From positions 620,001 through 684,000 of the forward strand of contig NZ_NIDE01000014.1 in the NCBI RefSeq assembly GCF_002197845.1: a stretch of DNA of 64,000 nucleotides, written 5' to 3'. Numbering within the stretch: position 1 is the first letter of the stretch; each line of letters opens with the position of its first letter. The notes below the pieces were generated by a model that was not told the origin of the DNA, searched no databases, and worked only from the letters and a program-made list of their open reading frames with translations. This document shows, in pieces, positions 7,906 through 62,019 of the stretch. This DNA comes from Fimbriiglobus ruber (GTDB lineage Bacteria; Planctomycetota; Planctomycetia; Gemmatales; Gemmataceae). A program made the position numbers and the translations under genes.

Positions 7906-8212
7906 GAGAGGCCCCGCGGTTTCAGAATCGCCCCAGTATAACCGCGGCGAGCGACAAATGAATCGTTTCGCGGTTTGGCAACACGCCCGCTGAAGTCCTG
8001 TCGAGGACCAACATCGCGCACGCCGTTCCGGAATGAACCAGCGCGAATCGTGAGCCGTGCCAGATCGTTGGTGGTATCACGCGGTTTTCCAACGAGATAC
8101 GGTTATCCTGTAGGTGCAATCACGGAGCTTGTGGGCCACAGACTGGGTGGGAACCTGGGGCCAGATTCACCCACACCGATCCGGTTGAATGAGCCGTCAC
8201 CCGCCCCCGCGA

Positions 8213-8313
8213 AATTGGGTTCGTTTGGTAAAAACGGGTGCCGGACCATTGTGTATGGTCCGTCCAAGTGAATGCAAGTCGACGCAATTGGGTTCGTTTG
8301 GTAAAAACGGGTG
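8213..8313. repeat. two copies of a 28-bp direct repeat
   Basis: Identical copies at 8213-8240 and 8286-8313 contain TTCGTTTGGTAAAAACGGGT. Between them is a short hairpin (GGACCATT...ATGGTCC). The block sits in the 459-bp gap between holB and the WD40 gene and is non-coding. Read in reverse it would give spurious peptides such as FYQTNPIS. Confidence 0.85.
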
Positions 8314-8364
8314 TCGGGAGGACCATCCCGAGCTGATCATCGATAAGCATCGACCGGCCGTGCC

Positions 8365-9375
8365 TCACACCCCGGCCGGCGCCGGCCGGAACAGCTTGTC
8401 GACCAGCGACTCGATGACCAGCACCAGTTGCACCTTGCGCTCGATCAGGTAGTCCGCCTCGGAGCAGGCTTCCATCAGGTCGGCGAGGTGGTCGGCTCCG
8501 GTGCGCAAGGCGAACCCGCGGACCGCGTCCGGCGTACCATCCGCGTCGGCGCCGAGGGCGGTGCGGACGGCCGCGTGGAGCAGGTCCGTCAGCAGCCGGA
8601 TGACGAGCGACGCCCGCTGCCGCTGGGCCGCCGACTCTTTCCCCGCTTCCTCCACGAACCGCATCCACTCGGCCGCGAACCCGACCGGGTCCGGCCGCTG
8701 TGCCGTCACCGCCCCGACGAGCGTTTCGCGGAACGCCCACAATGCGTCGTCGTTTAGGGCAAGCGCCTGGCCGGGGCTGCCGCCCGCGAGCCGGACGAGC
8801 TGGTCCACCCGCGGCGGGTCAGTGACTTCGTGGTCGGCGAGGACGGCTCGCAGGTCGTCCGGCTTGAGCGGGTGGAAGCGGACGACCTGGGCGCGAGAGA
8901 GAATCGTCGGCAGCTGCCGCTCGGTCCCGGTGGCGAGCAGGATCAGGAGCGCCCCCGCGGGCGGCTCCTCCAGCGTCTTGAGGAAGCAGTTGGCCGACTC
9001 CTCGTTGAAGTCGTCCGCGTCCTCGACGACACCGATCTTGTGCGGCCCGCGGGCCGGCTTCAGGCCGAGGTGACTGCAAAACTCGCGGACCACGTCGATC
9101 GGCAACTCGTGCTTGTCTTCGGGCTTGCGGGCAGTGAAGAAGTCGGGGTGGGTGCCCGCCACCACCTGGGCGCAGGCCGGACAGTGGTCGCAGGCCGTCA
9201 ACGGGGCGGGCGGGTGTTCGCACAGGAGCGCCTTGGCGAACTCGACGGCGAACAGGTTCTTGCCCACCCCCGGCGGCCCGGCGAACAGGTAGGCGTGGGC
9301 CAGCCGCCCGCGGCGGTGGGCGGTGAAGAGTTGCTCCCGCGCGGCGGCGTGCCCGCGAATCCGGTCCCAGCCCAT
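8365..9375 (-). CDS. holB: DNA polymerase III subunit delta'
   Basis: A 336-residue clamp-loader subunit (AAA+) that helps load the sliding clamp at the replication fork. The P-loop GPPGVGKN is at 33-40. A zinc module uses Cys52, Cys62, Cys65 and Cys68. The NCFLKTLEEPP motif and the sensor region LPTILSRAQ are clear. The gene begins 27 bp after the tmk stop on the same strand, the tmk-holB order known in many bacteria. Length is normal for HolB. Confidence 0.93.
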   Translation of the reverse strand: MGWDRIRGHAAAREQLFTAHRRGRLAHAYLFAGPPGVGKNLFAVEFAKALLCEHPPAPLTACDHCPACAQVVAGTHPDFFTARKPEDKHELPIDVVREFCSHLGLKPARGPHKIGVVEDADDFNEESANCFLKTLEEPPAGALLILLATGTERQLPTILSRAQVVRFHPLKPDDLRAVLADHEVTDPPRVDQLVRLAGGSPGQALALNDDALWAFRETLVGAVTAQRPDPVGFAAEWMRFVEEAGKESAAQRQRASLVIRLLTDLLHAAVRTALGADADGTPDAVRGFALRTGADHLADLMEACSEADYLIERKVQLVLVIESLVDKLFRPAPAGV

Positions 9376-9402
9376 GAAACGATACCCGGTTTGGTTGGCC
9401 GC

Positions 9403-10032
9403 TCACACCTGGGGCGACCGGAGGAGGCCGACGACGAGGTCGCAAACCCGCCCGTGTACGGTGTCGATCGAGGCGTCCGCGTTGACGACGCGGTGCGTTT
9501 CCGGCTTCCGGCGGGCGGTGGCCAGGAACCCGTCGCGGACGCGGTTGTGGAAGTCTTCGCCGCGGGTGTCGATGCGGGTCGCGTTCGACCGCCGCCGGGT
9601 CTTGGCGATCTCGACCGACATGTCGAGGATGATCGTGAGGTCCGATTCCAGACCGCCGGTCGACAACTGCCCGGCCTGCCACAACAACTCCGGGTCGAGT
9701 TTGCCGGCGTAGCCCTGGTAAACGATGTTGGACAGTAAGAACCGATCCGAGATGACGACCTCACCGCGGCCGATCGCGGGGCGGATGATCTGGTCGACCA
9801 TTTCCGCCCGGCTGGCCATGAACAGCAGGGCCTCGGTCTGCAAGCTGATCGCGTGCTGCCGGCCGAACTGCAGAACCTCGCGTAATTTGAGGGCCAGTTC
9901 GGTGCCGCCGGGGTCGGCGCAGGCCGTGACGGTCGCGCCCTGCCCCCGGAGCCACTCGGCCAGTTTCAGACACTGGGTCGATTTGCCCGTGCCGTCGTAC
10001 CCCTCGAAGACGACAAACGCTCCCTGCTTCAT
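9403..10032 (-). CDS. tmk: thymidylate kinase
   Basis: A 209-residue enzyme that phosphorylates dTMP to dTDP with ATP, an essential step of dTTP supply. The P-loop GYDGTGKS is at 11-18. The DPGGT motif (EPGGT in most relatives) and DRFLLSNIVYQGY, the nucleotide-binding DR motif, are present, and an Arg-rich lid (KTRRRSNATR) follows. It is upstream of holB in the same operon. A second, diverged kinase-like gene begins 281 bp away on the other strand. Confidence 0.92.
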   Translation of the reverse strand: MKQGAFVVFEGYDGTGKSTQCLKLAEWLRGQGATVTACADPGGTELALKLREVLQFGRQHAISLQTEALLFMASRAEMVDQIIRPAIGRGEVVISDRFLLSNIVYQGYAGKLDPELLWQAGQLSTGGLESDLTIILDMSVEIAKTRRRSNATRIDTRGEDFHNRVRDGFLATARRKPETHRVVNADASIDTVHGRVCDLVVGLLRSPQV

Positions 10033-43064: not shown

Positions 43065-44316
43065 CAGGGCCTTTCCTTGTTTCATCTTGTTGAATCGACC
43101 TGGGCTGGGTAAACGGGGCACCTTCCGATTCCCAGGAGCTGCCCATGCCCGCGTGTACGCTGTACGAGGCCCTCGCCACCCTCCCCGATCCCCGCAGCCG
43201 CCACGGTCGCATTCATCCCCTCCCGGCGGTCATGGGACTGGTCGCTCTGGCCATGCTGAGTGGCCGCAAGAGCTTGGCCGGGATCTCCCGGTTCGGACGG
43301 CAGCACGGGGCTCCGCTGGCTCACGCCCTGGGCTTCCGGCGGGGCAAAACGCCGACCGTCTCGACCCTCTCCCGAACCCTCCGCCGCTTCGACCCCCAGG
43401 ACCTCGAAGCGGCCCTGTCCCGGTGGGTGACCGGCCGGTTCGACCCCCACGCGTTCGAGCACATCGCGATCGACGGCAAGACGTTGCGAGGCAGCCGCCA
43501 CGGGGACGTGCCCGGCCACCACTTGGTGGCCGCCTACGCACCCGCCGTCCAGGCCGTCCTCGCTCAGGTCCGGGTCGATGCCAAAACGAACGAACACAAG
43601 GCCGCCCTCGAACTCCTCGGTATCCTCCCCGTGCGGGGCAAAGTGGTCACCGGGGACGCCATGTTCTGTCAGCGCGATCTGGCCACCCAGGTGATCGATT
43701 CCGGGGGCGACTACGTCCTCGTGGCCAAGGACAACCAACCGGCCTTGGTCGCCGATATCCGAGCCGGATTCGCCTTCGCGACCGCCGCCCGATCGATCGC
43801 GGCGGCCACTTCCCCCTGAGGACCTGCCAACGGCACCCGATCCCGACCGGGTGGCCACGTCGGTCGACAAGGGACATGGGCGGATCGAGAAGCGAACCCT
43901 CCACACGACGACGATTCTGACCGCCGAGGGGAAGTGGAAGGGGGCCAAGCAAGGGTTCCACGTCACCCGCGAGCGGACGGTCAAAGGGAAGAAGACGATC
44001 GAGGATGTGTACGGAATCACCAGTCTGTCGATCCAACAGGCGAATGCGGCGACACTTCTGTCCATCCTCCGGGATCACTGGCAGATCGAGAACGGATTGC
44101 ATTGGGTCCGGGATGAGACCCTGGGCGAGGACCGCTGCCGGGTGCGGATGGGTGCGGCTCCGCAGGTCCTGGCCGCCATCCGGAACGCCGTCGTCCATCT
44201 GTTGGCCGATGTCGACACCGAGAACCGTCCGGAGGCCATCGAGTGGCTGCAAATCCACCACGATGAAGCCCGGGCGCTGATTGGGATCCCACAAAGTGAA
44301 TAAAGGAAAGGCCCTG
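43065..44316 (+). mobile_element. ISAs1-type insertion sequence with 10-bp target duplication
   Basis: 1252 bp. The terminal inverted repeats are CAGGGCCTTTCCTT (43065-43078) and its reverse complement (44303-44316). The flanks are AAAGAAATCC on both sides (43055-43064 and 44317-44326), a 10-bp duplication as expected for this family. It carries a transposase in two frames. Confidence 0.9.
43145..44303 (+). pseudogene. ISAs1-type transposase split by a +1 frame break
   Basis: The first frame (43145-43819) begins MPACTLYEALATLPDPR and contains ISRFGRQHGAPLAHALGF, HIAIDGKTLRGSRHGD and VVTGDAMFCQRDLA. It stops at TCC CCC TGA. The second frame continues EDLPTAPDPDRVATSVDKGH, then TVKGKKTIEDVYGITSLS and LRDHWQIENGLHWVRD with the last catalytic Glu. 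A +1 shift at CCC-TGA, or loss of one C, joins them. CCC-TGA is a known shift-prone context, so recoding is possible. Confidence 0.82.
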
Positions 44317-49584: not shown

Positions 49585-49898
49585 TCGTCGCCTCCCGAGA
49601 TGAGTCAGCGGCACGGACCGTGTGCCCGACGGAGCCTGATATTCGTCCGCGAAATTGGTGTCAAGTCCACCGCCTCCGCTACCGACAGAGCCCCCTGGTG
49701 TGAAACTGGGTCGTTACCAGTAATCGGAATCGGTCGGTCGGCACGCTCGTCGCCGTCGCCTCGGAGTGTGGCTGGTCGTCCGAGTTTGACGGCAAATCCT
49801 CTCACGAGCCGCGGGCCGACGGTCGCCCGCGCCGCGGTGTTTGGTATGGTAACGGCGTGTTCGCGCGATTTCCGTTCCACGATAAGGGAACCCGACCG

Positions 49899-50678
49899 AT
49901 GTTGCCCGGGATCAAACTGTTCGACCTGACCGGCCGGGTGGCGATCGTCACCGGCGGCTCGAAGGGGTTGGGGCTGGCGATGGCCGCGGGGCTGGCGTCC
50001 GCCGGGGCCGACGTGGCCTTGGTCAGCCGGCACGAGGACGAGGCCCGCGCCGCCGCGGCCGAGTTGGCCCGCGACTTCGGCCGCCGGGCCATCGGCCTCC
50101 GCGCCGACGTGGCGACCCCGGCCGACGTGGACGCGGTCGTCGCCCGGGTACTGGCCGACCTCGGCCGTATCGACATCCTGGTGAACAACGCGGGCATCAA
50201 CATCCGCGGCCCGATCGAGTCGCTGACCCTGGAGCAGTTCCGGCAGGTCCAGCAGGTGAACGTCGAGGGCGTCTGGCTGGCGAGTCGGGCGGTGGTCCCG
50301 CACATGAAGGAGCGGAAGAGCGGCCGGATCATCAACCTCGCGAGTACGCTCGGCCTGGTCGGCCTGAGCGAGCGGACGCCGTACACGGCCAGCAAGGGTG
50401 CGGTCGTCCAGATGACCCGGGCGCTGGCGCTCGAACTGGCCCCGTTCGGCATCACGGTCAACGCCATCTGCCCCGGCCCGTTCCTGACCGAGATGAACCT
50501 CGAAGGTATGAAACAGTACGAATCACAATTCGCCGAAAAAATCGTCGGTGCGACGGCTTTAAAACGCTGGGGAGAACTGTCCGAAATCCAGGGAGCGGCA
50601 ATCTACTTGGCAAGTGATGCGAGCAGCTATACGACGGGAAGTTTGCTCACGGTTGACGGGGGGTGGACGGCTCAATAG
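49899..50678 (+). CDS. SDR-family oxidoreductase with atypical 3' end
   Basis: 259 residues. The Rossmann-fold NAD(P) site TGGSKGLG is at about 18-25, NNAG at about 96-99, the catalytic Ser near STLGLVG and YTASK with the catalytic Tyr and Lys; VDGGW sits at the end. It probably acts on an alcohol or 3-oxo substrate; the exact one is unknown. The start at 49899 was chosen because the Rossmann fold begins shortly after. The last 57 codons (from about 50505) have 25 A/T-ending codons against about 5 in the 57 before, a sign that the end was replaced by integrated DNA. Confidence 0.9.
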   Translation: MLPGIKLFDLTGRVAIVTGGSKGLGLAMAAGLASAGADVALVSRHEDEARAAAAELARDFGRRAIGLRADVATPADVDAVVARVLADLGRIDILVNNAGINIRGPIESLTLEQFRQVQQVNVEGVWLASRAVVPHMKERKSGRIINLASTLGLVGLSERTPYTASKGAVVQMTRALALELAPFGITVNAICPGPFLTEMNLEGMKQYESQFAEKIVGATALKRWGELSEIQGAAIYLASDASSYTTGSLLTVDGGWTAQ

Positions 50679-51063: not shown

Positions 51064-51789
51064 ATGGAAAACCAGCAACAGGCACCTTCTTTTTTGAATC
51101 GAATTGCCGAACGGCAACGGCAAATGGGAGTCATTGCAGATGTGCCCACGTTCTTGGCACAAGCATTTCCCTGTCCTTTTTGTGGTGTGAATGCACATCA
51201 GACTTGGTTCTCGGTTCGTGGTACAGGCTTGACAGACGGGCGTCCTTTATACGGGCCGTTGCCAGAACTTGATACGGCGAACTTTATGTTCTGCTATTGT
51301 GGCACTTGCTCCGGAAAGTCCATTTGGGTTAATGAAAAACTCATCTATCCCTATACTTCGACAGCTCCGATGCCCTCTGGAGATATGCCAGTCGATGTAA
51401 AAACTGATTACATGGAAGCCCGGAATATTTTCGCACAATCTCCGAGAGCCGCCGGAGGCTTGTTGCGGATTGCCTTTGAGAAATTATTACCGTATCTCGG
51501 TGTAACAAAAAACAATCCGCATGATGCGATTGGCGAACTTGTCAAAAAAGGATTAGCGCTCGGGACACATCAGCAAGCGCTGGACGTACTACGGGTTTTT
51601 TCAAATCAAACAGTACACAACGGTTTTGTAAAACTGGAAGATCAGCCCGAGACAGTTGCATTCCTGTTCAGATTGATGAATTATATTATCGAGCAGATGA
51701 TAACACGTCCAAAGGAAATTCAAGCCCTTTACACTAGCATGCCCGCTGACAAATTGGCGGGGATTGATAAGCGGGATAATAAAACTTGA
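51064..51789 (+). CDS. DUF4145-containing protein
   Basis: 241 residues. The N-terminal zinc ribbon (CPFCG near 37-41, CYCGTCSG near 77-84) is followed by a DUF4145 domain (about 120-225: ARNIFAQSPRAAGGLLRIAFEKLL, IGELVKKGLALG, LRVFSNQTVHNG). DUF4145 occurs in restriction and other defence-linked proteins as well as in phage-borne genes, so a defence role at the prophage edge is possible but not shown. It is AT-rich compared with the chromosome. Its 3' end overlaps the converging phage gene by 61 bp. Confidence 0.8.
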   Translation: MENQQQAPSFLNRIAERQRQMGVIADVPTFLAQAFPCPFCGVNAHQTWFSVRGTGLTDGRPLYGPLPELDTANFMFCYCGTCSGKSIWVNEKLIYPYTSTAPMPSGDMPVDVKTDYMEARNIFAQSPRAAGGLLRIAFEKLLPYLGVTKNNPHDAIGELVKKGLALGTHQQALDVLRVFSNQTVHNGFVKLEDQPETVAFLFRLMNYIIEQMITRPKEIQALYTSMPADKLAGIDKRDNKT

Positions 51790-53270
51790 TAACCGGAAGT
51801 CATAATTCGCCACCCCTGGCAAATGAGCCAGGGAACCGCCTTCGCACCCTTCCCACGCCATCCGCCCGCCCAAGTCGTGTCATCGATCAAGACGAGCGAA
51901 TCCGGCCCGAGTAGCCGATACGCTGCCTGAATCTCCGCAAGACAATGTTCCTGGTGTCCGGGCTGGTCGGCGTCCAAGCTGTCGAGATACAACACGTCAA
52001 TCGGTTCGGCTCGACCAGAGAGGTACGCCACCGAATCCGCACCCACAAGATTCAAATGATCAGACCAATCTTTACAGTGGAATCGGGCGGTCTCACAATT
52101 CGCCCGGTCGAGGTCCACGGACGTAAGACACCCTGCGCCACGTCCTTCTAAATAACATCCAAATAAGTACGAACTGTAACCGGCGCTCCAGTCCTCGGCG
52201 CTGCGGACGCATCCGGTCTCGGCGACTTGCGGATTTTTAAATTTTTTCATCTCTCGGAATAGTACGTCGAACGTCTTGTCACGGTCGGCGGTCGGATGGC
52301 CCGGCGGCGTTGCCCTGGCCCGATCCCGCACGAGATGTTGTAAGAGTGCATCTCTGCCCGCCGGGAGTCCGTAGCGTGGTCCTGCGAGCATTCGGAGGGC
52401 ATGGCGTGCGATGTCTTCGGCGGTCGGCATGTCGGCCGCATACTCAATCGTCCCCCATCGCTTGCGCCGCCACACGTTCACACCGCCGTACCGCTTCGGC
52501 ACCATGACGGCGTTCTTGCGTGAGGCACGGGGTAGGGAAACGCACGACGGGTAGAACTGGTGGAAGACACCCAACGCAGGAAGACGAGTCATCGAGGCAA
52601 GGTGATAAGGTCCGCTATCGATCCCGCAAAGCAAACTCGCCCGCTCGTACAGTGCGGCCAGTTCCAAAATGTCCAAGTGCCCAAAGTCAGGTTTCAAATA
52701 CCGAACTCTACCCGATTCGTATTTGACCGTAGGGCAGTCCCAATTCAAAACCACGATGGAACAATCGGACTGATCCAGTAACAGTTTGATTAATTGCTTT
52801 TGAACGTCCTCGGGGATAGATTTTTGCTGCCAGAAATTCACACCCCTCGGGTGAAGCAACAGGATCGGTCCGGGAAGGTCGGCAAGCCATCCATCTACCT
52901 TCTGCCGCATCGCTGGTGTAATCATCGAGTCGAAAGAACTTTCCATGTCGAGGGCTGCCATTTCCTCCCAGAGTTCGGCGGGTGTGCCAAGGTAGGGCAG
53001 TGGCGACAGGTTGAGATTTGAAAACGTCTTGTTCCCGCTGTAATCCTGATCGTCAATCGGGAAATTAAAACCCGCATGATAATCAAACGGATGGTAGTGG
53101 TCTGGTTCGGGATCGTACTCGACGCCGACCGCATCCCAGATGGGTTTCTTGTTCTGTTCGTAGTGGACTTTGAATTCGTAGCCCCGGGCTTGGTACAGCT
53201 TCAGAACATGGGCGATATGAACAACGTCGCCGCAACCGTGATCGAACCACAATTTTAAAATTTTTGACAT
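51729..53270 (-). CDS. glycosyltransferase-9-like plus methyltransferase fusion, phage late operon
   Basis: 513 residues. The N-terminal half (about 1-300) looks like a GT9 (heptosyltransferase-like) glycosyltransferase: the GCGDVVHIAHVLKLY start, LLLHPRGVNFW and the donor-site CGIDSGPYHLASMTRLPALG. The C-terminal half (about 325-495) is a class I methyltransferase-like domain (TSVDLDRANCETARFHCKDW, IDVLYLDSLD, VLIDDTTW). It starts 8 bp after the stop of the cysteine-rich tail-end gene, so it belongs to the late operon. Inferred job: adding and methylating a sugar on the virion or a cell-surface molecule. Confidence 0.8.
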   Translation of the reverse strand: MSKILKLWFDHGCGDVVHIAHVLKLYQARGYEFKVHYEQNKKPIWDAVGVEYDPEPDHYHPFDYHAGFNFPIDDQDYSGNKTFSNLNLSPLPYLGTPAELWEEMAALDMESSFDSMITPAMRQKVDGWLADLPGPILLLHPRGVNFWQQKSIPEDVQKQLIKLLLDQSDCSIVVLNWDCPTVKYESGRVRYLKPDFGHLDILELAALYERASLLCGIDSGPYHLASMTRLPALGVFHQFYPSCVSLPRASRKNAVMVPKRYGGVNVWRRKRWGTIEYAADMPTAEDIARHALRMLAGPRYGLPAGRDALLQHLVRDRARATPPGHPTADRDKTFDVLFREMKKFKNPQVAETGCVRSAEDWSAGYSSYLFGCYLEGRGAGCLTSVDLDRANCETARFHCKDWSDHLNLVGADSVAYLSGRAEPIDVLYLDSLDADQPGHQEHCLAEIQAAYRLLGPDSLVLIDDTTWAGGWRGKGAKAVPWLICQGWRIMTSGYQVLLSRLSIPANLSAGMLV

Positions 53271-53278
53271 ACGGATAT

Positions 53279-53728
53279 TTAGAGTTCAGTGATGGTAAAC
53301 GATACGCTCTGCGGCGGGTCGCAACACTGGTTCACGCCGACGTAGGTGCCCGACAAAAAGAACGGATCGAACGAGGGGAAAACCTGCGTCAAGGGCGGGT
53401 GGGTGTATAGGTCGCCGTTAAAACAACCCGGCCCAATCTTCCAGACTCCCGTCGAGGGATCGTACAAAAGTGAGAAGCCTACCCCGGGCGGGCCGCCTTC
53501 ATCGGGATCACACGGGCAGGAACCACATCCACCAGAGATCGACCAGCAACATGAACCCGAACTAAAAATTGCCGTCTGCGTGAACGTGCCCGGGTTCCCT
53601 TCGGGTAACGACAGAGCGCAGAGTGATCCCGATATTGAGATTGAGAGCGAGAGGTCCGACGGACAAGCCGGAGGCGTTCCGCAGCACGAACACGGCCCGT
53701 AGTTAACCGTCTCGGTCCACGTCGCCAT
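53279..53728 (-). CDS. cysteine-rich phage tail-end protein
   Basis: 149 residues with about 15 Cys, in clusters CSCCGTPPAC, SCCWSISGGCGSCPC and QCCDPPQ. It is Gly/Ser/Pro-rich with beta-strand patterns (SLSISISGSLCALSL, FLSGTYVG). Its start codon overlaps the stop of the Ser-repeat gene, so translation is coupled. By position it is probably a tail-tip or decoration protein; no homology is recognised. Confidence 0.65.
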   Translation of the reverse strand: MATWTETVNYGPCSCCGTPPACPSDLSLSISISGSLCALSLPEGNPGTFTQTAIFSSGSCCWSISGGCGSCPCDPDEGGPPGVGFSLLYDPSTGVWKIGPGCFNGDLYTHPPLTQVFPSFDPFFLSGTYVGVNQCCDPPQSVSFTITEL

Positions 53729-54381
53729 CAGCTACCCCCACAGCTTGTACAGATTTGCGTATAAGTTTTCGTCAGTACGATGTCACCGCCGACGCAAGAC
53801 GCACTGACATCGGTCAAAACAGTTACCATCGTTCCCGCACACGCACACGAACTGCCCGAGCTTGACGACTGCGAACTACTCGATTTGCTTGAACTGGAAT
53901 TACTCGAACTGCTCCCACTCGATGAACTGGATTCACTCGATGAACTGTCCGAGCTTGAACTGTTCGAGGATTGTGAACTGTTGGAACTGTTCGATTCCGA
54001 CGAACCGGACGACGAACTAGACGACCCGGTAGAACATGGCAAACCATCGCTGGCGTGATCGGTAGCGAATACCTGCGTACCGTCGGCCGCCGTCCCGTAC
54101 CTCACGGCCAGATACCGTTGTCCCCGGTTGAGGTCCATGCCGTTCGGGTCAATGGCGTAGATCGTCGTGGAACTGTCGGAAATGGTCGTCCACGCACTAC
54201 CGCTGTACGCCTGCGTGACGCACGGGAAATACCCGTTCGACAGTCGGCAACCAGTAATAAGAACGTGAATAATAAACCGGCCGCCGGTGGGCATACGGGC
54301 GGCCCCGCTTTGCCCCTCGGTCTGGTTTATGACCCGTTGCAAATCGTTATAGGTTTCGTCAGATAAATAATAATTTGGCAT
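53728..54381 (-). CDS. serine-repeat phage tail-end protein
   Basis: 217 residues. The N-terminal domain (1-115, YYLSDETYNDLQRVINQ and FIIHVLITGCRLSNG) is folded-looking. A low-complexity tract follows at about 117-178, built on 4-Ser units spaced by single G, E, N, Q, D or K. A Cys-containing C-terminal end closes it (CACAG, ASCVGG, ICTSCGG). It overlaps both neighbours by 1 bp. The tract is a candidate O-glycosylation site for the adjacent glycosyltransferase; this is inference. Confidence 0.7.
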   Translation of the reverse strand: MPNYYLSDETYNDLQRVINQTEGQSGAARMPTGGRFIIHVLITGCRLSNGYFPCVTQAYSGSAWTTISDSSTTIYAIDPNGMDLNRGQRYLAVRYGTAADGTQVFATDHASDGLPCSTGSSSSSSGSSESNSSNSSQSSNSSSSDSSSSESSSSSGSSSSNSSSSKSSSSQSSSSGSSCACAGTMVTVLTDVSASCVGGDIVLTKTYTQICTSCGGS

Positions 54382-55283
54382 TAGCTTAACAGTCCGGCAA
54401 AATCAACTTCTTGATAACCTTTGAAGTCGATGTACTGGAGAGTACCGCCCGCATTCAAAGGCAGTCCCATCCCGTTCAACGGCACCGGGCTTGTCACCTG
54501 CGCCCCGTTCTTGTCGAGGATCGGTTGAGGCGGAAGCCCTGCGGATGCGATCTGAAGCGTGCCCGCATCGAGTACGGAAACGGGATTCCAGAACGCCAGT
54601 TTGATTTCGAGTTCGATTTTGACTTCCCAGAAGTACGCATTGTTTTCGCAGTGGGTTGAGCAAGCGTACTTGGTGCAACGGACAGTTTTTGCTGGGAACG
54701 TGGTCGAGGCACCCGGACAAATGACCATCACGAACGCAGCGCTGTTGATGCTGTCTTGAAACGTGTTGATCTTGGCAATCGGGTCGAAGCCCGAAATGTC
54801 CTTGTAACTCGTGATCGTACACGTTGCGTTGTGGGACGGGATTTCAATAGGCGGGTCGAACACTTGACCGGCGGAATTGACGACGGCTTTTCCCGCTTGG
54901 TCCTTCGGCCCAAGTAATCTTGTCGTCGCTACGGAACCCCACTCGAAAGTCGGTGGTCGAGAAGGTGGGTCAACGGACTGGTCGGTCTGCGTGGGCGAAA
55001 GGGTCGAGCCGTTGCCGCTGTTGCCAAAGTCGAACGGTCGGCTTGAGTAGTCGTAGGTCAGGGTCCAGAGTCCGAGTTGTTCGCTGTCCCGCTCGGCGGA
55101 TACCTTGATAGCCAACGCTTCCAAGTCGTCCGGGTACGACGAATACCGCAGGATGCCGACGGTTGACCACACATCGGGCGCACGGTCGGCGTAGTCCATA
55201 AACACCCGGAAAATCCGTTGATACGTCCTTACGCCTTTCTGGTCCTGTTCCCCCCGTGAACTGATTTCTTGATACGTTCCCAT
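54381..55283 (-). CDS. phage tail protein after the tape measure
   Basis: 300 residues, mixed alpha/beta, no membrane segment. Motifs seen are TYQRIFRVFMDYADRAPDVWS, FEWGSVATTRLLG and a two-Cys segment (CTKYACSTHC). It follows the tape measure by 7 bp, the place of a distal tail or baseplate protein in siphoviruses. No specific family was recognised. Confidence 0.65.
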   Translation of the reverse strand: MGTYQEISSRGEQDQKGVRTYQRIFRVFMDYADRAPDVWSTVGILRYSSYPDDLEALAIKVSAERDSEQLGLWTLTYDYSSRPFDFGNSGNGSTLSPTQTDQSVDPPSRPPTFEWGSVATTRLLGPKDQAGKAVVNSAGQVFDPPIEIPSHNATCTITSYKDISGFDPIAKINTFQDSINSAAFVMVICPGASTTFPAKTVRCTKYACSTHCENNAYFWEVKIELEIKLAFWNPVSVLDAGTLQIASAGLPPQPILDKNGAQVTSPVPLNGMGLPLNAGGTLQYIDFKGYQEVDFAGLLS

Positions 55284-55290
55284 GCCGTAT

Positions 55291-56955
55291 TTAGCCCGCC
55301 TGTAGCGGGATTGCCACGCCCCAGATACGAATAATACCGTTCAACTTGTCATTGATCTTTTTGAGTTCTTCGTTGTTCTTCTCGTCGGCCTTTTTCTGAA
55401 TGCCGAACTTCGAGTCGTAATTAAACTTGGCTTCGATGCTGAAGGCTTCTTTACTGCCTTTCAGGGCAGCGCTCAACGGCTTGTAATCGACCGCATCCCG
55501 GACATCCTTCCCGAGTTGTTTGGCGGCGTCCTGTTCGGTCTTCCGGCGGTTGGCAAGTGCATCGAACCACGCCCCGATTTTCGCTGCGGAATCGCCCCAA
55601 GTGTTCAGTGCGCCTTTGCCCCAATCACGCATTTTGTCCCCGGCCGCACGCAGGCTGTTACCCCATGCGTCCACGCCCGGAATAGCGTCCCGGAACGCCT
55701 TTCCACCCAAGCTGTCAGGAAGACTACCGGCAATACCAAGCAGGTCTTTTATTGTGGATTTAAAGGCATCTACGAGATGGCCGAATCCTTCCACAACGAA
55801 CGAGGTCACATACGAAATGGCCCCGGCCCCGGCCTTGATCGAATCCCACACATAGCCCGCCCCTTGGCCCAAAGTTTTAAACACGTTCAAGACAACGGAC
55901 TCGACAGACGGCCAACTCGACCCGTAGGCGAATACCGCATTCCCAAGTTGCTTGATTTCGGTAATGGCTATGTCGATCCACTCGGCGAATACCTCACCGA
56001 CCGCAACCAGAATTTCACTCGTCTTGGAAATGGCTCGCCCAAGCCAGTCGAACACGGGCGTGAACAGGGCAAATCCTTTCGAGATCACGCCAGCGAATAG
56101 CTTGATGACTGGCGCTGCGATGAGCGTGGCCCGATTCACGAGTCCGTCCCATACTGCGGAGATTTGTTTCTTGCTCTCGGTCCATGCCTTACTTGCTTCG
56201 GCCGCCATCCTCAGTTCATTGTTCGAGAGAATGGCCCCGCTCTTTTTCTGCGTCTCGATGAAGTCGTCTATTCCCTTGCGACCTTTTTGCAGGACCGGCA
56301 AAAGCTGGTCGCCGGACTTGCCGAACAATGTGAGCGCCGCCGCCGCTTGTTCCGAACCGGGAGGAAGTTTGCTGATCCCTTCGGCGATGGATTTAAATTG
56401 TTCTTCGTAATCCTGACCCTTCAGCGTGTTCAGGCTCAGACCCAGGCGGTTCAAAGTTTCGGCTTCCGTTGCCCCGCCGCCTTGAATGTTCTTTCCCATG
56501 ATGGCGAAGACGTGCCCAACTTGGTCGGCCTCCACCCCGACCCGCCCGAGTAGCTGTTGCATGCCTTGCAACTTGACCGGATCGACGCCAAGCTGGGTCG
56601 CCGTCTTCACCACGTTCCCGAATTCTTTCAGCTTGTCGAACGGGGCGGAAATAGCGTCGTACAACGTCTCGACCACACCGCCCGCAGCGCCGCCCACTGC
56701 CCCGCCGATGGCAGCGCCAATCGGCCCGCCCAGAGCGAAGCCCAGAGCGGAACCCGCACCCGCAAGTATGCCTTTGGCGTTCGACAGGAAGTTACTGGCA
56801 CCTTTCGCAGCGCCGACGAATGCTCCTGCTATCCGGGCCTGCGTCTGGTCACTCCATTTCTTGATTGATCCGGCGGCGTTCGACAGTCCGGCCGTGAGGG
56901 GGGCGCTGTTGGTCGAGAGCGTGAGCGATGCGTTACCGATTGAGTTTGCGGCCAC
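55291..56955 (-). CDS. phage tail tape measure protein
   Basis: 554 residues. It is Ala/Gly-rich, with predicted helices and hydrophobic segments (GSALGFALGGPIGAAIGGAVGGAAGG, APVIKLFAGVISKG). The order after the two chaperones and the length fit a tape measure of a short-tailed siphovirus. The GTG start (56955) overlaps the stop of the preceding frame by 1 bp (TAGTG). It sets tail length and helps DNA passage. Confidence 0.8.
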   Translation of the reverse strand: MAANSIGNASLTLSTNSAPLTAGLSNAAGSIKKWSDQTQARIAGAFVGAAKGASNFLSNAKGILAGAGSALGFALGGPIGAAIGGAVGGAAGGVVETLYDAISAPFDKLKEFGNVVKTATQLGVDPVKLQGMQQLLGRVGVEADQVGHVFAIMGKNIQGGGATEAETLNRLGLSLNTLKGQDYEEQFKSIAEGISKLPPGSEQAAAALTLFGKSGDQLLPVLQKGRKGIDDFIETQKKSGAILSNNELRMAAEASKAWTESKKQISAVWDGLVNRATLIAAPVIKLFAGVISKGFALFTPVFDWLGRAISKTSEILVAVGEVFAEWIDIAITEIKQLGNAVFAYGSSWPSVESVVLNVFKTLGQGAGYVWDSIKAGAGAISYVTSFVVEGFGHLVDAFKSTIKDLLGIAGSLPDSLGGKAFRDAIPGVDAWGNSLRAAGDKMRDWGKGALNTWGDSAAKIGAWFDALANRRKTEQDAAKQLGKDVRDAVDYKPLSAALKGSKEAFSIEAKFNYDSKFGIQKKADEKNNEELKKINDKLNGIIRIWGVAIPLQAG

Positions 56956-57263
56956 TATGTTCCTTTCTTCGCTGCCCTGGCAAGATACCCTTCAATCCGT
57001 GCTTCCTGGCTGATTTCGGGCTTGTCCCACTCAACCATAAGATCACTCGGCCTGACTTTGTTGCTGGCGAAACAACCGACCGTTGCGGCCCCGATCACCG
57101 CCGCCCGCACGTCCTCCCGGTACTCGCCCCACGGGTCGAGTTGATAAGCGGCGTACCAGTGGACGAATTCCGCATAGGTCAAAGTGGACCGCAGTTCGGA
57201 AACCGTGCGGCCCAGAGTCCGAGCCAGTAAAAACTCAAACTTGAGTTCGGGGTTCGCCCTCAA
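56955..57263 (-). CDS. tail assembly chaperone, T-type (second frame)
   Basis: 102 residues if started at the TTG 57263, but more likely made as the -1 frameshift product of the preceding frame. It contains LLARTLGRTVSELRSTLTYAEFVHWYAAYQLDPWGEYREDVRAAV, a pattern seen in DUF4035-type phage proteins. The position between the G-type chaperone and the tape measure is classical. See the slippery site at 57266-57272. Confidence 0.8.
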   Translation of the reverse strand: MRANPELKFEFLLARTLGRTVSELRSTLTYAEFVHWYAAYQLDPWGEYREDVRAAVIGAATVGCFASNKVRPSDLMVEWDKPEISQEARIEGYLARAAKKGT

Positions 57264-57574
57264 CCTTTTTTTGCGTCGTCCACCGCCCCGCCGTCGAGCT
57301 TGTTCGCCTTCACGGCGGCGAGTGCCAGGGCGGCGACCAGTACGGCCGATTTCTTTTTCAGTGCGGCGATGTCTTCCAACTTGAAAAGCGGGTTCCCGTG
57401 TTCGTCGCAGGCCGAGTAGACCAGGGCTTCAATGTCAGGGTCGCTGGACACACGGCATTTTTGCAACTCGTCGTAAGAGACCTGGCGCATGTAGACCGCC
57501 TTCCCGAGTTCCGGAATGTCGGCCTTTTGCGGGGCGATGGTAAAATTTAAAAAGTCTTCTCGTGATAGAGACAT
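57260..57574 (-). CDS. tail assembly chaperone, G-type (first frame)
   Basis: 104 residues, ending DDAKKG. It begins MSLSREDFLNFTIAPQK with AAAGGT 5 bp before the ATG. It is soluble and helical. Immediately before its TGA lies a slippery A AAA AAA run (57266-57272 as T7 on the plus strand), which would shift some ribosomes into the next frame to give a fusion of about 205 residues, as in the lambda G/GT system. Confidence 0.82.
   Translation of the reverse strand: MSLSREDFLNFTIAPQKADIPELGKAVYMRQVSYDELQKCRVSSDPDIEALVYSACDEHGNPLFKLEDIAALKKKSAVLVAALALAAVKANKLDGGAVDDAKKG
57266..57272 (-). promoter_or_regulatory. predicted programmed -1 frameshift site
   Basis: The minus strand reads GCA AAA AAA GGT TGA. 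The heptamer A AAA AAA is a strong -1 slippery site, and the downstream chaperone frame lies in the -1 frame. After slipping, the next codons are AGG TTG AGG GCG. This mirrors the conserved tail-chaperone frameshift of long-tailed phages. Confidence 0.82.
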
Positions 57575-57583
57575 GGGTTACCT

Positions 57584-58015
57584 TTAGGATGCGGTAGTAA
57601 TGGTGATGTCGTCGGTGAGTTTGATGGAAAACTTGTACTCGACATCCTTATCGGGCGTCACGTCGATGGTGCCGATCTTGTCGAGGAAGCCGGGCGCAGT
57701 GGCGATCTTGGCCGCAACCCCGGTGGACGGGAATTGAACCTGCCAGTTCTTGACGAGTCCCTTGACGGCGATCAGGCGGGCGTAGTCGGCGGCGTTGTAG
57801 TACATCGTGCATTCCCAGGTCGCACACTCTTGCATGCCCGGCGCACGGGTTTTCATGTTGCTGGACTGACCCAGGAAATAAGTCGGGATTTCTGTTACTT
57901 CGCCGTGATCGACGGTCAGACTGGTAGGACTGACGAACTGAACTTGTGCCCCACTTGTACCATCACCCAGAGAGAGCGTTGCGGACTTACCAATAACAAC
58001 AACTTCTGTAGTCAT
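57584..58015 (-). CDS. phage major tail protein
   Basis: 143 residues, beta-rich (ATLSLGDGTSGAQVQFVSPTS, DVEYKFSIKLTDDITITTAS), with GGAG 5 bp before the ATG. It lies directly before the tail chaperones, the usual place of the tube protein. It is shorter than many tube proteins but of that type. Confidence 0.75.
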   Translation of the reverse strand: MTTEVVVIGKSATLSLGDGTSGAQVQFVSPTSLTVDHGEVTEIPTYFLGQSSNMKTRAPGMQECATWECTMYYNAADYARLIAVKGLVKNWQVQFPSTGVAAKIATAPGFLDKIGTIDVTPDKDVEYKFSIKLTDDITITTAS

Positions 58016-58061
58016 CTAAACTCCTTATCAATATTGACAAGGTATTTAGATATGATGGCGA

Positions 58062-58505
58062 TTATTTTAAGATCGAAGATATGCGACGGTCGATTGCTTT
58101 ACACAGTGCAGACCAGTAACTTTCCTTGGTCGTTTCCATTGCGGCGGCCAGAAACGGTTTCGGTTTGATGTGCTTCCCGCCCCGCTCGACCAAGTGTGCG
58201 TACTGGCTCGGGCGGACTATCCTCGGTTGGCCTTTCTGCTTGCCTCTCGTGTAGTCGCCTCTCGTCTTGATGTACTTGCTTCTCGGGCCGATGATGGCAA
58301 CCGCAACGCTCGTGTACGTTTTAATTTTGCTGCCGATGGACTTCGCCAGGAATCCGTAGCGTGCGAGTCCGTAGGCGTTGTTTTTTACGGCCGTCTTAAC
58401 GATCTTGCTGGCCTCGGCCTGGCTCTGCCTCAATACCTTGTTCACAACGCCACGTTTCAACCCTTCCATCTTGGACAAGTCGATCACCATTTTTCCGTCG
58501 ATCAC
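58062..58505 (-). CDS. HK97 gp10-type tail-completion protein
   Basis: About 148 residues from the GTG at 58505 (GGAGGG upstream); an ATG follows five codons later. It is a basic, mixed fold with HLVERGGKHIKPKPFLAAAM near the end, the typical 'E.G......P.PFL.PA' signature of HK97 gp10-like proteins. It acts at the head-tail interface. The start overlaps the stop of the glycosyltransferase-like gene by 4 bp. Confidence 0.85.
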   Translation of the reverse strand: MIDGKMVIDLSKMEGLKRGVVNKVLRQSQAEASKIVKTAVKNNAYGLARYGFLAKSIGSKIKTYTSVAVAIIGPRSKYIKTRGDYTRGKQKGQPRIVRPSQYAHLVERGGKHIKPKPFLAAAMETTKESYWSALCKAIDRRISSILK

Positions 58506-59413
58506 AACAGCCCTCCGGTCCTGAAATGATAAATCTGTTGAATCACGTCCGCAGGTCGAATCATGTCCATACACTGCGGGACGAATTCGCCGTCTTTATT
58601 TAGGACCGGTAGGGCGCATAATGATTTGTTGTGGTGTTCGCCGTCGGGGAGTGCGACGACACGGCTTTTCCAGCAGGCGTTCGGCGAGCAGCATTTCAAC
58701 CGCCCTTGCATCGCCAAGAACGCTTGCGTCGGATACCAGATGAACGAGATCGGTTCCCGGCCGCCGAGCAAGCAGACATACGGCTTGTCGAACGCTGCGA
58801 AGATGTGCTGAAGAAAGGTGACGCCCCCGATCCCGGCCGCAGCGTTGTAGACGAGCGAAAACAGTTCCCTCGGACTGGTCTTACCAATCAAGTCGATTGC
58901 GCCCTTTAACGGCCGGTGCAAGTGATGGCGTTCACCGATTTGCACAATCTTAAATTCGCCACTGAGTCGGTCGCAAACTTCCTGGTAGTTTGCGTGACCC
59001 CATCCCTTGCAGGTGTAATCTTGCTTTACGCCGGAGTTCACGACGATGTATTTCCCGTCAATAATTTTATTATTCTTCTCGGCGTCCGTGAGATAGAGAG
59101 ACGGACGGTTGACTTGCAACTTGAGCGGGCGGTTGATCTGCCCGGCGAGGTAGTCGGTGAAGCACGTCATGAAATGGCCCGTGCGGATCATGTGGCTTTC
59201 GTGGATGCCGGGATAGTGCATCGCCACGGCTTGCCCCTCATCGCTGGCCGGAACGATATGGGGATTGTTTTCCCAAATCTCTTGGCAGGTCGTGTGAACG
59301 CTCGTTTCGTATTCGCCGGGGAACTGGCGATGTAGGGATTCGACCGCCGCCGTCATTACAAGCACGTCGCCGGGACTGAGGAAGTGCGTGAGGTGAAGTT
59401 TACTTTTCCCCAC
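58502..59413 (-). CDS. glycosyltransferase-9-like protein within the phage head-tail module
   Basis: About 303 residues from a GTG at 59413. The start LHLTHFLSPGDVLVMTAAVESLHRQFP is typical of GT9-type enzymes, as is the later GKTSPRELFSLVYNAAAGIGGVTFLQHIFAAFDKPYVCLLGG donor region. The Cys cluster CCSPNACW comes near the end. A longer frame to 59626 exists but is a shadow of the upstream small gene. It lies between connector genes and gp10, an unusual place; overlaps on both sides suggest it is an integral late gene. Confidence 0.78.
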   Translation of the reverse strand: MGKSKLHLTHFLSPGDVLVMTAAVESLHRQFPGEYETSVHTTCQEIWENNPHIVPASDEGQAVAMHYPGIHESHMIRTGHFMTCFTDYLAGQINRPLKLQVNRPSLYLTDAEKNNKIIDGKYIVVNSGVKQDYTCKGWGHANYQEVCDRLSGEFKIVQIGERHHLHRPLKGAIDLIGKTSPRELFSLVYNAAAGIGGVTFLQHIFAAFDKPYVCLLGGREPISFIWYPTQAFLAMQGRLKCCSPNACWKSRVVALPDGEHHNKSLCALPVLNKDGEFVPQCMDMIRPADVIQQIYHFRTGGLL

Positions 59414-59630
59414 AGTTACAGGGCTTGGGCGGGAGTTGTCTTTGAAGTTGTGGAAGTGACTCCTTCGGCACTTGTGGCAGGTTCGCCATTCTGCGCCATT
59501 TGGTCCGGTACTTCTCTTGCTTGGTCTTGTCCATCGTGATCGGTGTGCCCGAATCGTCGTGACCCCGCCAGATGTCGAGTTGTCGGCCCCAAAGGATTTG
59601 CCCCAATTCCGGAATGTATGCTTCACCCAT
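59400..59630 (-). CDS. small phage protein
   Basis: 76 residues (MGEAYIPELGQILWGRQLDI...). It has a basic middle and ends CNCGEK. It overlaps the head-closure gene by 8 bp and the glycosyltransferase-like gene by 14 bp, so it is translationally coupled. No function is recognised. Confidence 0.65.
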   Translation of the reverse strand: MGEAYIPELGQILWGRQLDIWRGHDDSGTPITMDKTKQEKYRTKWRRMANLPQVPKESLPQLQRQLPPKPCNCGEK

Positions 59631-59979
59631 TGCTCGTGTTTACGCTCTCCACGTCGAGTACGGTTTCGTAGTTCTCAAAGTCCCGGCGCACCCCGGTCAC
59701 GTCGTAGGTTTCGCCAAAATTAAAATAGTACAATCGGTCCTCGGCCGAGATGTTCGGGAATCCCCGGACTCGTACCTCCCCCTGCGTGACGGTGCGAATT
59801 GCCCCGTACTTGTCCTGTTCGTTGGACGACTGCGCCGAGTAGTTGCCCCAAAGGTAGTTACCCGTGGAAGGGTACGATTTGGGATTGTCGCCCGTCACGC
59901 CGTCCGGGGTGCGGACGCAGACGAGCCATTCAAACCGCCAGCGATATTCGCCCGCCCCCGGCTTACCTGTTCCAGTCAC
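59623..59979 (-). CDS. phage head-closure (head-tail joining) protein
   Basis: 118 residues. It is a beta-rich protein with the RRDFENYETVLDVESVN ending and the VRVRGFPNISAEDRLYYFNFGETYDVTGV stretch typical of head-tail joining adaptors. It overlaps the preceding connector gene by 17 bp. Order and size fit. Confidence 0.78.
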   Translation of the reverse strand: MTGTGKPGAGEYRWRFEWLVCVRTPDGVTGDNPKSYPSTGNYLWGNYSAQSSNEQDKYGAIRTVTQGEVRVRGFPNISAEDRLYYFNFGETYDVTGVRRDFENYETVLDVESVNTSNG

Positions 59980-60714: not shown

Positions 60715-62019
60715 TTAACTTGCGGGCGTGGCGGCTCGGGCGATGGAGGAAGCGTGCCCGACGTAGTTACAGTCGAACCGCATCAACACTTCAAACCCGA
60801 TCATCCCGTTAGCCCGGTAGAGTTCGTTCAGACGAGTGATCTTGACCCCATCGACCATGCGGACGACGTGACGGGATAGGTTGGCGAATACGGCGATGTT
60901 CTTGCTGAACGAGCCGGAGGCGTCGATACTGTTCGAGATCAGATAGTTGAACCCGGCAATCTTGTCCGGTTGCATGTTCTGTACAAGCGTGTTGTTTACG
61001 TCCCAAATGTAGCGGTTCTGCCCGTCCTTGATCCGCCGCAAGTCCCAGACGGACGAGTCTGCCAGGACCAGCGTATTCGTCGGCCGGTAGGCGAGATCGA
61101 CGGACGAGAACAGCGTCATCAGGTCATCGAACGTGTAAAAATTCTTGTGCGTTGCGGCGAGTGTTACCGCCGGTGTTCCGCCGTCGGCCGAAGTACAGGC
61201 CGCAATCAAGCCGGTCGGCTGGCTGGAGCCGGTGCCCGAGACGATATACTTTTCGAGCGTTCTTGCGCCACGTTCTGCGAGACGGGAGACGAGCCAGGAT
61301 TCGACATCGAAAACGGCATCCTCAAGCATCTCATAGGTGACTTGGACAATCGTCCTGAAGTAGTACCCACCCAGCGTCACTTTGTCGAACGTCGGGTCCA
61401 CGTTCGTCGGACTGGCGGACGTTTGGCCGATGATGGACATGGTGTTCGCCACGTCGCTACCACGGGGCAGGGTAAAGTTGTTGCCGTCGCTCGTGACCTG
61501 TACGTCTACCTGCCCGATGATGGGCGAGTAGTATTTCATCTCGGTTTGCAGGTCCGGGTACGTCGTGGTGAAGGTCGTGTTACCGCCCGCCGTGCTGGTG
61601 CCGGTGTTGATCGACCGCATCGTGATCGTGTGGTTGTTGAGGTGATACCCGAGATCGTTGGCCCGCTGGATCGTGTCACCGGATACAGACACGTCTCGAC
61701 CACTCCCGTAAGCCATCCACGCTTTGAGCGCCTTGTTACGCTCTTGCTTGGTGTGGTTCTTGGGGATCGGGGCGCTTGCGGAAGGGCTTACCTTGCGGCC
61801 CTGACTCCGGTTCATGTCGGATTCGAGGGCTTCGAGCTTTTCCTTACGTTCGGCGGCCTTGATTTGGTTTTCGAGCTTGTCCACGTCCCGCATCCGGGTT
61901 GCCCACTGCTCCTCTTCCTCGGAGGTCAGTTCCCGGCCTTCGGCTTCCGCCCGCTCGTATAATTTGCGGGAGTCGGTCACCAGTGCCGCCCGCTGCTCTC
62001 TGAGTTCAAGTGAATTCAT
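60715..62019 (-). CDS. HK97-type major capsid protein
   Basis: 434 residues. The N-terminal coiled-coil scaffold region (about 1-75: LRKLYERAEAEGRELTSEEEEQW...) is followed by a capsid fold beginning near GSGRDVSVS. Typical motifs are AAGGNTTFTTTYPDLQTEM, PTFDKVTLGGYYFRTIVQVTYEML, GTGSSQPTGLI and MIGFEVLMRFDC. It is cleaved by the adjacent protease and assembles the shell. GGAG lies before the ATG. Confidence 0.93.
   Translation of the reverse strand: MNSLELREQRAALVTDSRKLYERAEAEGRELTSEEEEQWATRMRDVDKLENQIKAAERKEKLEALESDMNRSQGRKVSPSASAPIPKNHTKQERNKALKAWMAYGSGRDVSVSGDTIQRANDLGYHLNNHTITMRSINTGTSTAGGNTTFTTTYPDLQTEMKYYSPIIGQVDVQVTSDGNNFTLPRGSDVANTMSIIGQTSASPTNVDPTFDKVTLGGYYFRTIVQVTYEMLEDAVFDVESWLVSRLAERGARTLEKYIVSGTGSSQPTGLIAACTSADGGTPAVTLAATHKNFYTFDDLMTLFSSVDLAYRPTNTLVLADSSVWDLRRIKDGQNRYIWDVNNTLVQNMQPDKIAGFNYLISNSIDASGSFSKNIAVFANLSRHVVRMVDGVKITRLNELYRANGMIGFEVLMRFDCNYVGHASSIARAATPAS

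Follow-up and report, generated by a model that had tools for sequence, protein, structure and literature searches.

The stretch of DNA analysed herein, called the window, comprises 64,000 nucleotides of the 12.4 Mb genome of Fimbriiglobus ruber (G000:C14:620001-684000), and it carries a prophage that begins near 50.7 kb and, when the window numbering is extended into L024, ends near 73.3 kb. Among the late genes of this prophage are two that encode GT9-like glycosyltransferases, namely GT9a and a fusion of a second GT9 domain, GT9b, with a methyltransferase, together with a gene for a tail protein that contains a long run of serines; our results suggest that the two enzymes act as a pair and that this tail protein is probably their acceptor (coordinates in Table 1). 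The list of open reading frames (ORFs), Pfam and PHROG bear out the coordinates and the gene order that the initial annotation gave for both GT9 genes. Its placing of GT9a between the head closure gene and the gp10-like gene is right as to position, but it missed a small ORF of 76 residues lying in between; likewise the serine-repeat protein that it reported next door to the fusion is indeed there, but a gene for a 149-residue protein separates the two, and the fusion starts 8 bp past this gene.

GT9a was taken as the 303-residue reading from a GTG codon; its frame is open upstream to a GTG at 59626, and its 3' end overlaps the gp10-like gene. Scanned as the longer reading of 374 residues, it passes the cut-off of the Pfam GT9 model (PF01075) weakly, with 24.7 bits against 22. 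Searches of PDB sequences with single proteins gave nothing significant, and profile searches returned GT9 heptosyltransferases at E 0.01 to 1.4, mixed with unrelated entries. The structure model, which was made with a 79-row alignment as input, has a pLDDT (predicted local distance difference test) of 96.1 and a pTM (predicted template modelling score) of 0.94. In the Foldseek search with this model TibC chains take ranks 1-20 (best E 3.9e-11), ahead of WaaC and WaaF; in VIA-align the top structure is the uncharacterised GT9 protein 3tov (Z 24.1, root-mean-square deviation 2.6, 260 aligned residues), followed by WaaF (21.8, 2.8, 250), TibC (20.7, 2.8, 257) and WaaC (20.1, 3.1, 245). The heptosyltransferase-type GT-B fold (GT9/WaaC/TibC) is found in the models of both glycosyltransferase domains, so that the GT9 folds proposed for both proteins are supported by structure prediction.

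Relatives of GT9a were collected as the best 80 of 167 matches in genomes and the best 80 of 95 in viral sequences, where viral means an IMG/VR contig and the gene lists were examined for 18 of these contigs. All 160 matched stretches are free of stop codons; the motif GGR[ED] is present in 154 and CWKSR in 117 of them, and a C-terminal four-Cys finger was counted in 155 by a loose regular expression, of which at least one match (L103) begins at the wrong Cys. In the 79-row alignment the invariant positions are G15, D16, P51, Y67, G128, K130, K136, G160 and R182, and in the C-terminal part G217, R219, E220, C241, C247, W248, C266 and C281. None of the libraries searched has a model specific to this family, and tblastn against phage records found no GT9a relative. 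Viral proteins in BFVD already bear the names 'Aah/TibC' (A0A6J5SVC1) and 'RfaF', and TibC-like phage genes have thus been annotated before.

As the best Foldseek match, TibC merits a closer comparison. It is a protein O-heptosyltransferase with an iron finger and belongs to the bacterial autotransporter heptosyltransferases, BAHT (TibC, AAH; TIGR04414); its candidate base is Asp-110, its donor residues are Lys-230 and Arg-286, Cys-339, 342, 358 and 370 are iron ligands, and residues 1-97 form an N-terminal beta-barrel (PMC4358343). A true BAHT (a TIGR04414 member with 574 bits) was found in only one of the 294 genomes of the phylum, G363, and nowhere in the F. ruber genome does TIGR04414 match at E 1e-3. 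When GT9a was aligned with this planctomycete BAHT by hhalign in global mode, E was 1.7e-6 with a probability of 90.8%, values that stand without an ordinary-GT9 control, and under another column rule E was 1.2e-5 with 80.6%. The GD pair, K136, the Cys247-Trp248 pair, C266 and C281 are in register in this alignment; the likeness to BAHT comprises the GT-B/GT9 fold, the Asp base, the Lys and three of the four finger Cys; in our own reading an Arg of GT9a may also be the equivalent of the donor Arg of TibC. The finger of GT9a (P0003) has the spacing C-x5-C-x18-C-x14-C, with longer loops than the C-x2-C-x15-C-x11-C of TibC. The finger alone was rejected as proof of kinship with BAHT, because an ordinary GT9 here (G075) has a compact Cys cluster as well, seen by eye. 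With the heptosyltransferases WaaC and WaaF of lipopolysaccharide synthesis GT9a shares the GT9 fold, but it differs from them by its Ser-run neighbours and its extended finger.

The second enzyme is a GT9-methyltransferase fusion as first described, and the evidence for it comes from PHROG, Pfam and a two-domain fold. It matches phrog_24975 over nearly its full length (residues 3-498, E 1.2e-164), and since the match is almost end to end the fusion is not a chance joining of frames; the copy in genome G010 scores 1164 bits with the same family, which is listed with 'unknown function' and for which a role is proposed here. The GT9 domain covers about residues 1-300 and the O-methyltransferase-like domain about 305-502. 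The latter scores 31.1 bits with Methyltransf_24, over the cut-off of 26.3; the former scores 21.0 bits in hmmscan, just under the GT9 cut-off of 22, and 23.3 bits, over it, in the six-frame search. In the structure model (pLDDT 89.3) the N-terminal half resembles 3tov, WaaC and TibC (VIA Z 20.1, 18.5 and 17.4), and the C-terminal half has the fold of class I S-adenosylmethionine-dependent O-methyltransferases, with MeT1 at 17.2, COMT at 16.7, MycF at 16.5, SpnH at 16.1 and NovP at 15.9. The last three and MeT1 are sugar O-methyltransferases, for which no GT9 domain is named; as COMT scores like them, a sugar acceptor is a prediction only. A 14-row alignment gives as invariant H11 G12 G14 D15 and D218 S G P H223 in the GT9 domain, and E351 T G, D386, D430 and D463 D464 in the methyltransferase domain. 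In phage records tblastn with the fusion matched by the methyltransferase half only, in Synechococcus phage S-EIV1 with 33% identity.

The two genes are also found together elsewhere. GT9a and the fusion are adjacent at the 3' end of the late operon in C1, a second prophage of the same genome, and in G010, and in both the pair comes directly after Ser-rich proteins; the order of Ser-rich protein, GT9a and fusion recurs in the viral contig L210, with 16 Ser in 30 residues. C1, G010 and L210 look like members of one phage type other than that of the window. Both genes are adjacent in L185/L212 too, a viral locus without a Ser-rich ORF. Moreover in five loci of Planctomycetota, GT9a, GT9b and the methyltransferase form a single ORF (886 residues in L072, 883 in L074, 890 in L077, 916 in L085 and 1199 in L100), and a merely accidental neighbourhood of the two GT9 genes was rejected on this account; the comparison supports GT9a and the fusion as a probable functional pair. 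What tblastn finds in common between the window phage and the prophages in C1 and G010 is the cassette, the last part of the Ser-run protein and, in C1, a fibre-like gene (65%); in G010 there are also an integrase (31%) and a portal that matches weakly. With only these few genes in common, the set therefore occurs in different phage types. A side observation is the phage contig L212, which at 7425-9560 encodes a 711-residue fusion of a TylF-type methyltransferase, GT9b and Methyltransf_24, in which two methyltransferases flank the GT9 domain.

In the GT9a tree (130 rows) the nearest neighbour of the window copy is L130 (61% identity, support 98); C1 and G010/L133 join them next (support 96), and this clade lies inside a set of 26 rows, 22 viral and 4 chromosomal (support 99). 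The labels viral and chromosomal change 10 times on the tree against 43 times in shuffles, and exchange of GT9a between the two is therefore limited but repeated. L130, the nearest relative, is a viral contig of 430 kb, which is jumbo-phage size, and its GT9a lies near a Pro-rich protein of 604 residues ending in a short Ser run.

The tail protein of 217 residues consists of an N-terminal domain, a Ser run at about residues 120-178 with a peak of 25 Ser in 30 residues, and a C-terminal segment common to C1, where residues 177-210 are 59% identical. The serines of the run are written in mixed codons (TCG16 AGT14 TCA6 TCC5 AGC4 TCT1), and a slippage repeat of the DNA was rejected on this ground. 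The 160 loci form 129 non-redundant groups, window phage and G010 included. With an ORF counted as Ser-rich at 18 Ser in 30 residues, a threshold of our own choosing, 48 groups have such an ORF within 3 kb of GT9a and 58 have one within 5 kb; with 15 the count within 3 kb becomes 50 and with 21 it becomes 42. Per kb, the density of Ser-rich ORFs is 0.088 in the kb next to GT9a and 0.084 in the one after, then 0.036, 0.048, 0.030 and 0.037 in kb 3-6, and about 0.006 at 6-8 kb. Within 2 kb this is about 16 times a small control, in which the density is 0.0053 per kb (2 clusters in 380 kb). The control consists of 19 random 20-kb stretches from three Gemmataceae genomes while the GT9a loci span several phyla, so that the fall-off with distance inside the GT9a loci is the better control; both control ORFs lie on the minus strand of L224, and one or both may be spurious, though they were kept in the count. 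Together with the order kept in C1, G010 and L210, the enrichment upholds the link to the serine-repeat protein drawn in the initial annotation.

Chromosomal relatives of GT9a also stand beside very long poly-Ser ORFs, for example in L044 (14359-19998), L046 (3-2921), L066 and L071. Those in L044 and L046 look Rhs-like by eye, and the long neighbour in L100, when scanned, gave RHS_repeat with 18.5 bits, below the cut-off. In L046 the GT9a frame runs into poly-Ser sequence and looks like a broken gene. None of 10 tail or Ser-rich proteins of related phages has a PHROG match at E 0.01.

A comparison with syntenic prophages shows how the two enzymes stand in the operon. The major head protein of the window is matched in 21 of the 95 genomes of the family. 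From nine head-protein relatives a syntenic set of five was taken, namely L263 (G053), L264 (G020), L265 (G022), L266 (G051) and L267 (G033); L268, which ends in the tape measure gene, and the more distant L269-L271, in which no Ser-rich ORF was found, were left out. Much of the gene order from head to tail is common to the window prophage and these five, and GT9a is not found after head closure in any of them. By tblastn gp10 follows head closure directly in four, and L266 has an unmatched gene of 224 residues there. At E 1e-3 a GT9a match is present in only one of the five genomes, G033, where it lies on another contig. The claim that the enzymes are integral parts of the operon rather than cargo is not sustained by this result, and GT9a as an ancestral gene of the late operon was rejected.

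Instead, all five carry other glycosyltransferases at the corresponding tail protein. After the minor tail gene each has a protein resembling the 217-residue protein in the N-terminal part of the latter, matched by tblastn in L263, L264 and L265 and aligned by MAFFT in L266 and L267 as well, where the kinship comes from position and MAFFT only, with no tblastn match. In L264 and L265 this protein has a GT25 domain (43.5 and 33.7 bits, cut-off 24) and a Ser run (26 and 27 Ser in 30); as G020 and G022 are close relatives, this case was counted once. In L267 it has a GT8-like domain (25.2 bits against 24.3) and in L263 a GT8-like domain that scores 18.7 bits, under the cut-off, and aligns with the other two, both proteins being without a Ser run; L266 has a GT8-like gene that stands by itself (24.1 bits, just under the cut-off), directly after the tail protein. 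A tail protein is thus coupled to a glycosyltransferase in five of five, with two kinds of enzyme, neither of them GT9. This favours a tail-directed function and speaks against an ancestral GT9a; judged by sequence comparison, GT9a is an insertion in terms of ancestry, and what recurs is the partnership of tail protein and glycosyltransferase. Though the GT9 genes themselves are absent from the syntenic prophages, the idea of tail glycosylation survives, because other glycosyltransferases are carried on or beside the tail protein.

Over its length the prophage has genes for integrase, terminase, portal, protease and major head protein, and connector and tail genes. Besides the families in Table 1, PHROG assigned a head-tail adaptor (phrog_442), portal (phrog_12), terminase (phrog_9) and a serine-type integrase (phrog_95), and an assembly chaperone and tail T are further neighbours. 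The gp10-like protein, whose family phrog_5 is named Neck1, scores 19.3 bits with Pfam HK97-gp10_like, below the cut-off of 21.4, and Pfam and PHROG scans of the Cys-rich 149-residue protein gave no match. On the left flank lies a short-chain dehydrogenase-like gene, named by eye, at 49857-50678(+); on the right a fragment of 59 residues (L024 13293-13472(+)) resembles the 3' end of this gene, and an 11-bp direct repeat is found at 50661 and 73455. The attachment site of the prophage is likely the 3' end of the dehydrogenase-like gene, as these sequences suggest. Farther left, two adjacent ORFs at 43145-44303(+) look by eye like halves of a transposase.

Table 1. Features of the prophage in the window, with window coordinates
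Feature	Position	Strand	Evidence or remark
GT9a, TibC-like glycosyltransferase with C-terminal four-Cys finger	58502..59413	-	Pfam, model, Foldseek
GT9b-methyltransferase fusion, 513 aa	51729..53270	-	phrog_24975, Pfam, model
Ser-run tail protein, 217 aa, proposed acceptor	53728..54381	-	sequence, Ser count, tblastn, MAFFT
149-aa Cys-rich protein	53279..53728	-	between Ser-run protein and fusion
Minor tail protein, 300 aa, syntenic marker	54381..55283	-	identity 29-43% in L263-L267
Tape measure protein	55291..56955	-	phrog_2854 E 4.6e-18
gp10-like neck/tail completion protein	58062..58574	-	phrog_5 E 4.6e-9
76-aa small ORF	59400..59630	-	overlaps end of head closure gene and start of GT9a; ends CNCGEK
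Head closure protein	59623..59979	-	phrog_25 E 1.1e-5
Major head protein	60715..62019	-	phrog_10 E 3.9e-60

The small ORF before GT9a resembles, by eye, the N-terminal extension of GT9a in C1, and similar ORFs precede GT9a in G010/L133, L136/L137 and L144, again by eye. A motif scan found it in 5 of 160 loci, one being the window phage, and in none of 228 control windows; since the pattern was written after viewing the window, C1, L136 and L144, the scan is descriptive. A Cys-x-Cys followed by Lys (CNCGEK, CGCK, CGCGKK) closes the small ORF and recurs within the glycosyltransferase-bearing tail proteins or at their ends (window 59400-59630(-); L263 10344-12452; L264 9212-11629; L265 9542-11800; L266 7413-8357; L267 15016-17052), and it may serve as a tag for docking or for metal.

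As for the sugar donor, genes around the GT9a loci were counted by tblastn, the query's own locus and weak matches being included. An HldE-kinase-like sequence is present in 14 of the 129 groups (1 viral), and a nucleotidyltransferase in 20 (8 viral); FkbM methyltransferases occur in 19 groups and Mannosyl_trans3 proteins in 24. The HldE match in L044 has E 1.2e-119 and 400 bits, under the model cut-off of 521, and the rfaE_dom_II match in L043 has E 6.2e-47 and 159 bits, under 181.5. In F. ruber itself a heptose kinase gene (376 bits, over the cut-off of 345) adjoins an adenylyltransferase gene (165.8 bits, under 181.5).

We propose that GT9a would start the chain by putting a sugar on serines of the run, most likely heptose taken from ADP-heptose that the host makes, that the GT9b domain would add a further sugar, and that the C-terminal domain of the fusion would O-methylate the sugar so added, the product being a methyl-capped, mucin-like stretch at the tail tip. 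Such an O-heptosylation and sugar-methylation cassette for the phage's own Ser-run tail protein seems to us, on balance, somewhat probable; for its parts, the Ser-run protein is quite probably the acceptor and heptose is reasonably probable as the sugar, and we infer the donor, the acceptor residues, the chemistry, the order of the steps and the effect on infection. Where the initial annotation left the choice between a virion protein and a host receptor as target, the former is favoured by the sequence comparisons, because of the link with Ser-rich ORFs and the order Ser-rich protein, GT9a and fusion. Several results weigh against this proposal. TIGR04414 is absent from scans of GT9a (P0003) and P0001 to E 10; GT9a is without the N-terminal barrel of TibC, residue 1 of the model pairing with TibC residue 93; the first finger Cys faces a gap in the BAHT alignment; and VIA-align puts 3tov and WaaF above or level with TibC. 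In addition, three of the five syntenic prophages pair a GT8-like enzyme with a tail protein without a Ser run, so that the coupling by itself does not demonstrate glycosylation of such runs, and at the threshold of 18 in 30 a Ser-rich ORF is missing within 3 kb of GT9a in 81 of the 129 groups, partly because of short contigs, so that the GT9a family may have other acceptors. The nucleotidyltransferases near GT9a could also serve another sugar.

This last point leads to an alternative that we consider unlikely, in which the acceptor is the same and GT9a and GT9b use another nucleotide sugar, so that the protein is glycosylated and not heptosylated. ADP-heptose use is known for some GT9 members only; in our reading of the alignment His203 of GT9a stands at a BAHT Trp that may be the sugar-contacting Trp-305 of TibC, and the nucleotidyltransferase neighbouring GT9a in L142 matches CTP_transf_like broadly. 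On the other hand, the heptose-kinase-like sequences near GT9a, the heptose kinase and adenylyltransferase of F. ruber and the Foldseek rank of TibC argue for heptose. More improbable still, in our view, is lysogenic conversion, where the enzymes would alter a glycan or protein of the host surface, and with it phage receptors, having come into the late operon by chance insertion. The temperate phage Kapi1, which modifies the host O-antigen, is a precedent (PMC8787464), and GT9a is indeed an insertion relative to the syntenic prophages; but the Ser-rich order conserved in C1, G010 and L210 and the syntenic phages that fuse glycosyltransferases to the tail protein itself point to the virion, and the position in the late operon would imply lytic expression. 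That the glycosyltransferases act from the virion, for example at adsorption, instead of on the tail protein, appears very improbable, even with glycosyltransferase domains within the tail-protein polypeptide in G053, G020, G022 and G033, since the window enzymes are separate and have no tail domain, chromosomal relatives also adjoin Ser-run proteins, and activated donors would be needed that are not to be expected outside cells.

Several known systems invite comparison with the proposed cassette. In Gram-positive bacteria the serine-rich-repeat glycoproteins are glycosylated by systems with a glycosyltransferase pair, GtfA-GtfB. For virion glycosylation in mycobacteriophages the primary paper is Freeman et al. 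2023. Glycosyltransferases of the mycobacteriophages Che8, Corndog and Myrna modify the phages' own capsid and tail tube proteins (PMC12363180), and the likeness is that glycosyltransferase genes are coupled to a virion protein, here known from the genes alone; the difference is that the targets there are capsid and tail tube, and the passages of that source on these phages mention no GT9, Ser-run acceptor or fused methyltransferase. BAHT genes are often followed by the gene of the acceptor (PMC4358343), but the partner in the window is a Ser-run tail protein and not an autotransporter, and a second GT9 and a methyltransferase are attached. Virion glycosylation by phage enzymes (mycobacteriophages) and serine heptosylation (autotransporters) are known already; our literature searches, which mostly did not cover subscription journals, found among the titles listed no description of this GT9a family and its Ser-run partners, of Ser-run heptosylation, of this phage cassette, of GT9-GT9-methyltransferase fusions or of glycosyltransferase swapping on one tail protein.

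A wider scenario, which we hold only tentatively, is that a widespread family of TibC-like O-heptosyltransferases builds methyl-capped, mucin-like stalks on poly-Ser sequences, and that the tail-tip protein of planctomycete phages is a hub of interchangeable modules (GT9 with GT9-methyltransferase, GT25, GT8), some of them fused and self-glycosylating. If the proposal is true, protein O-heptosylation would reach from the autotransporters of enterobacteria to phage virions and to poly-Ser proteins of several phyla, and it would give a hint why some planctomycete and phage proteins have long Ser runs; GT9a and the 217-residue protein offer a testable pair of enzyme and substrate. Moreover, that unrelated glycosyltransferases replace one another at a single tail-protein locus suggests selection for tail-tip decoration as such, with stability, evasion of host surface defences or attachment as possible benefits.

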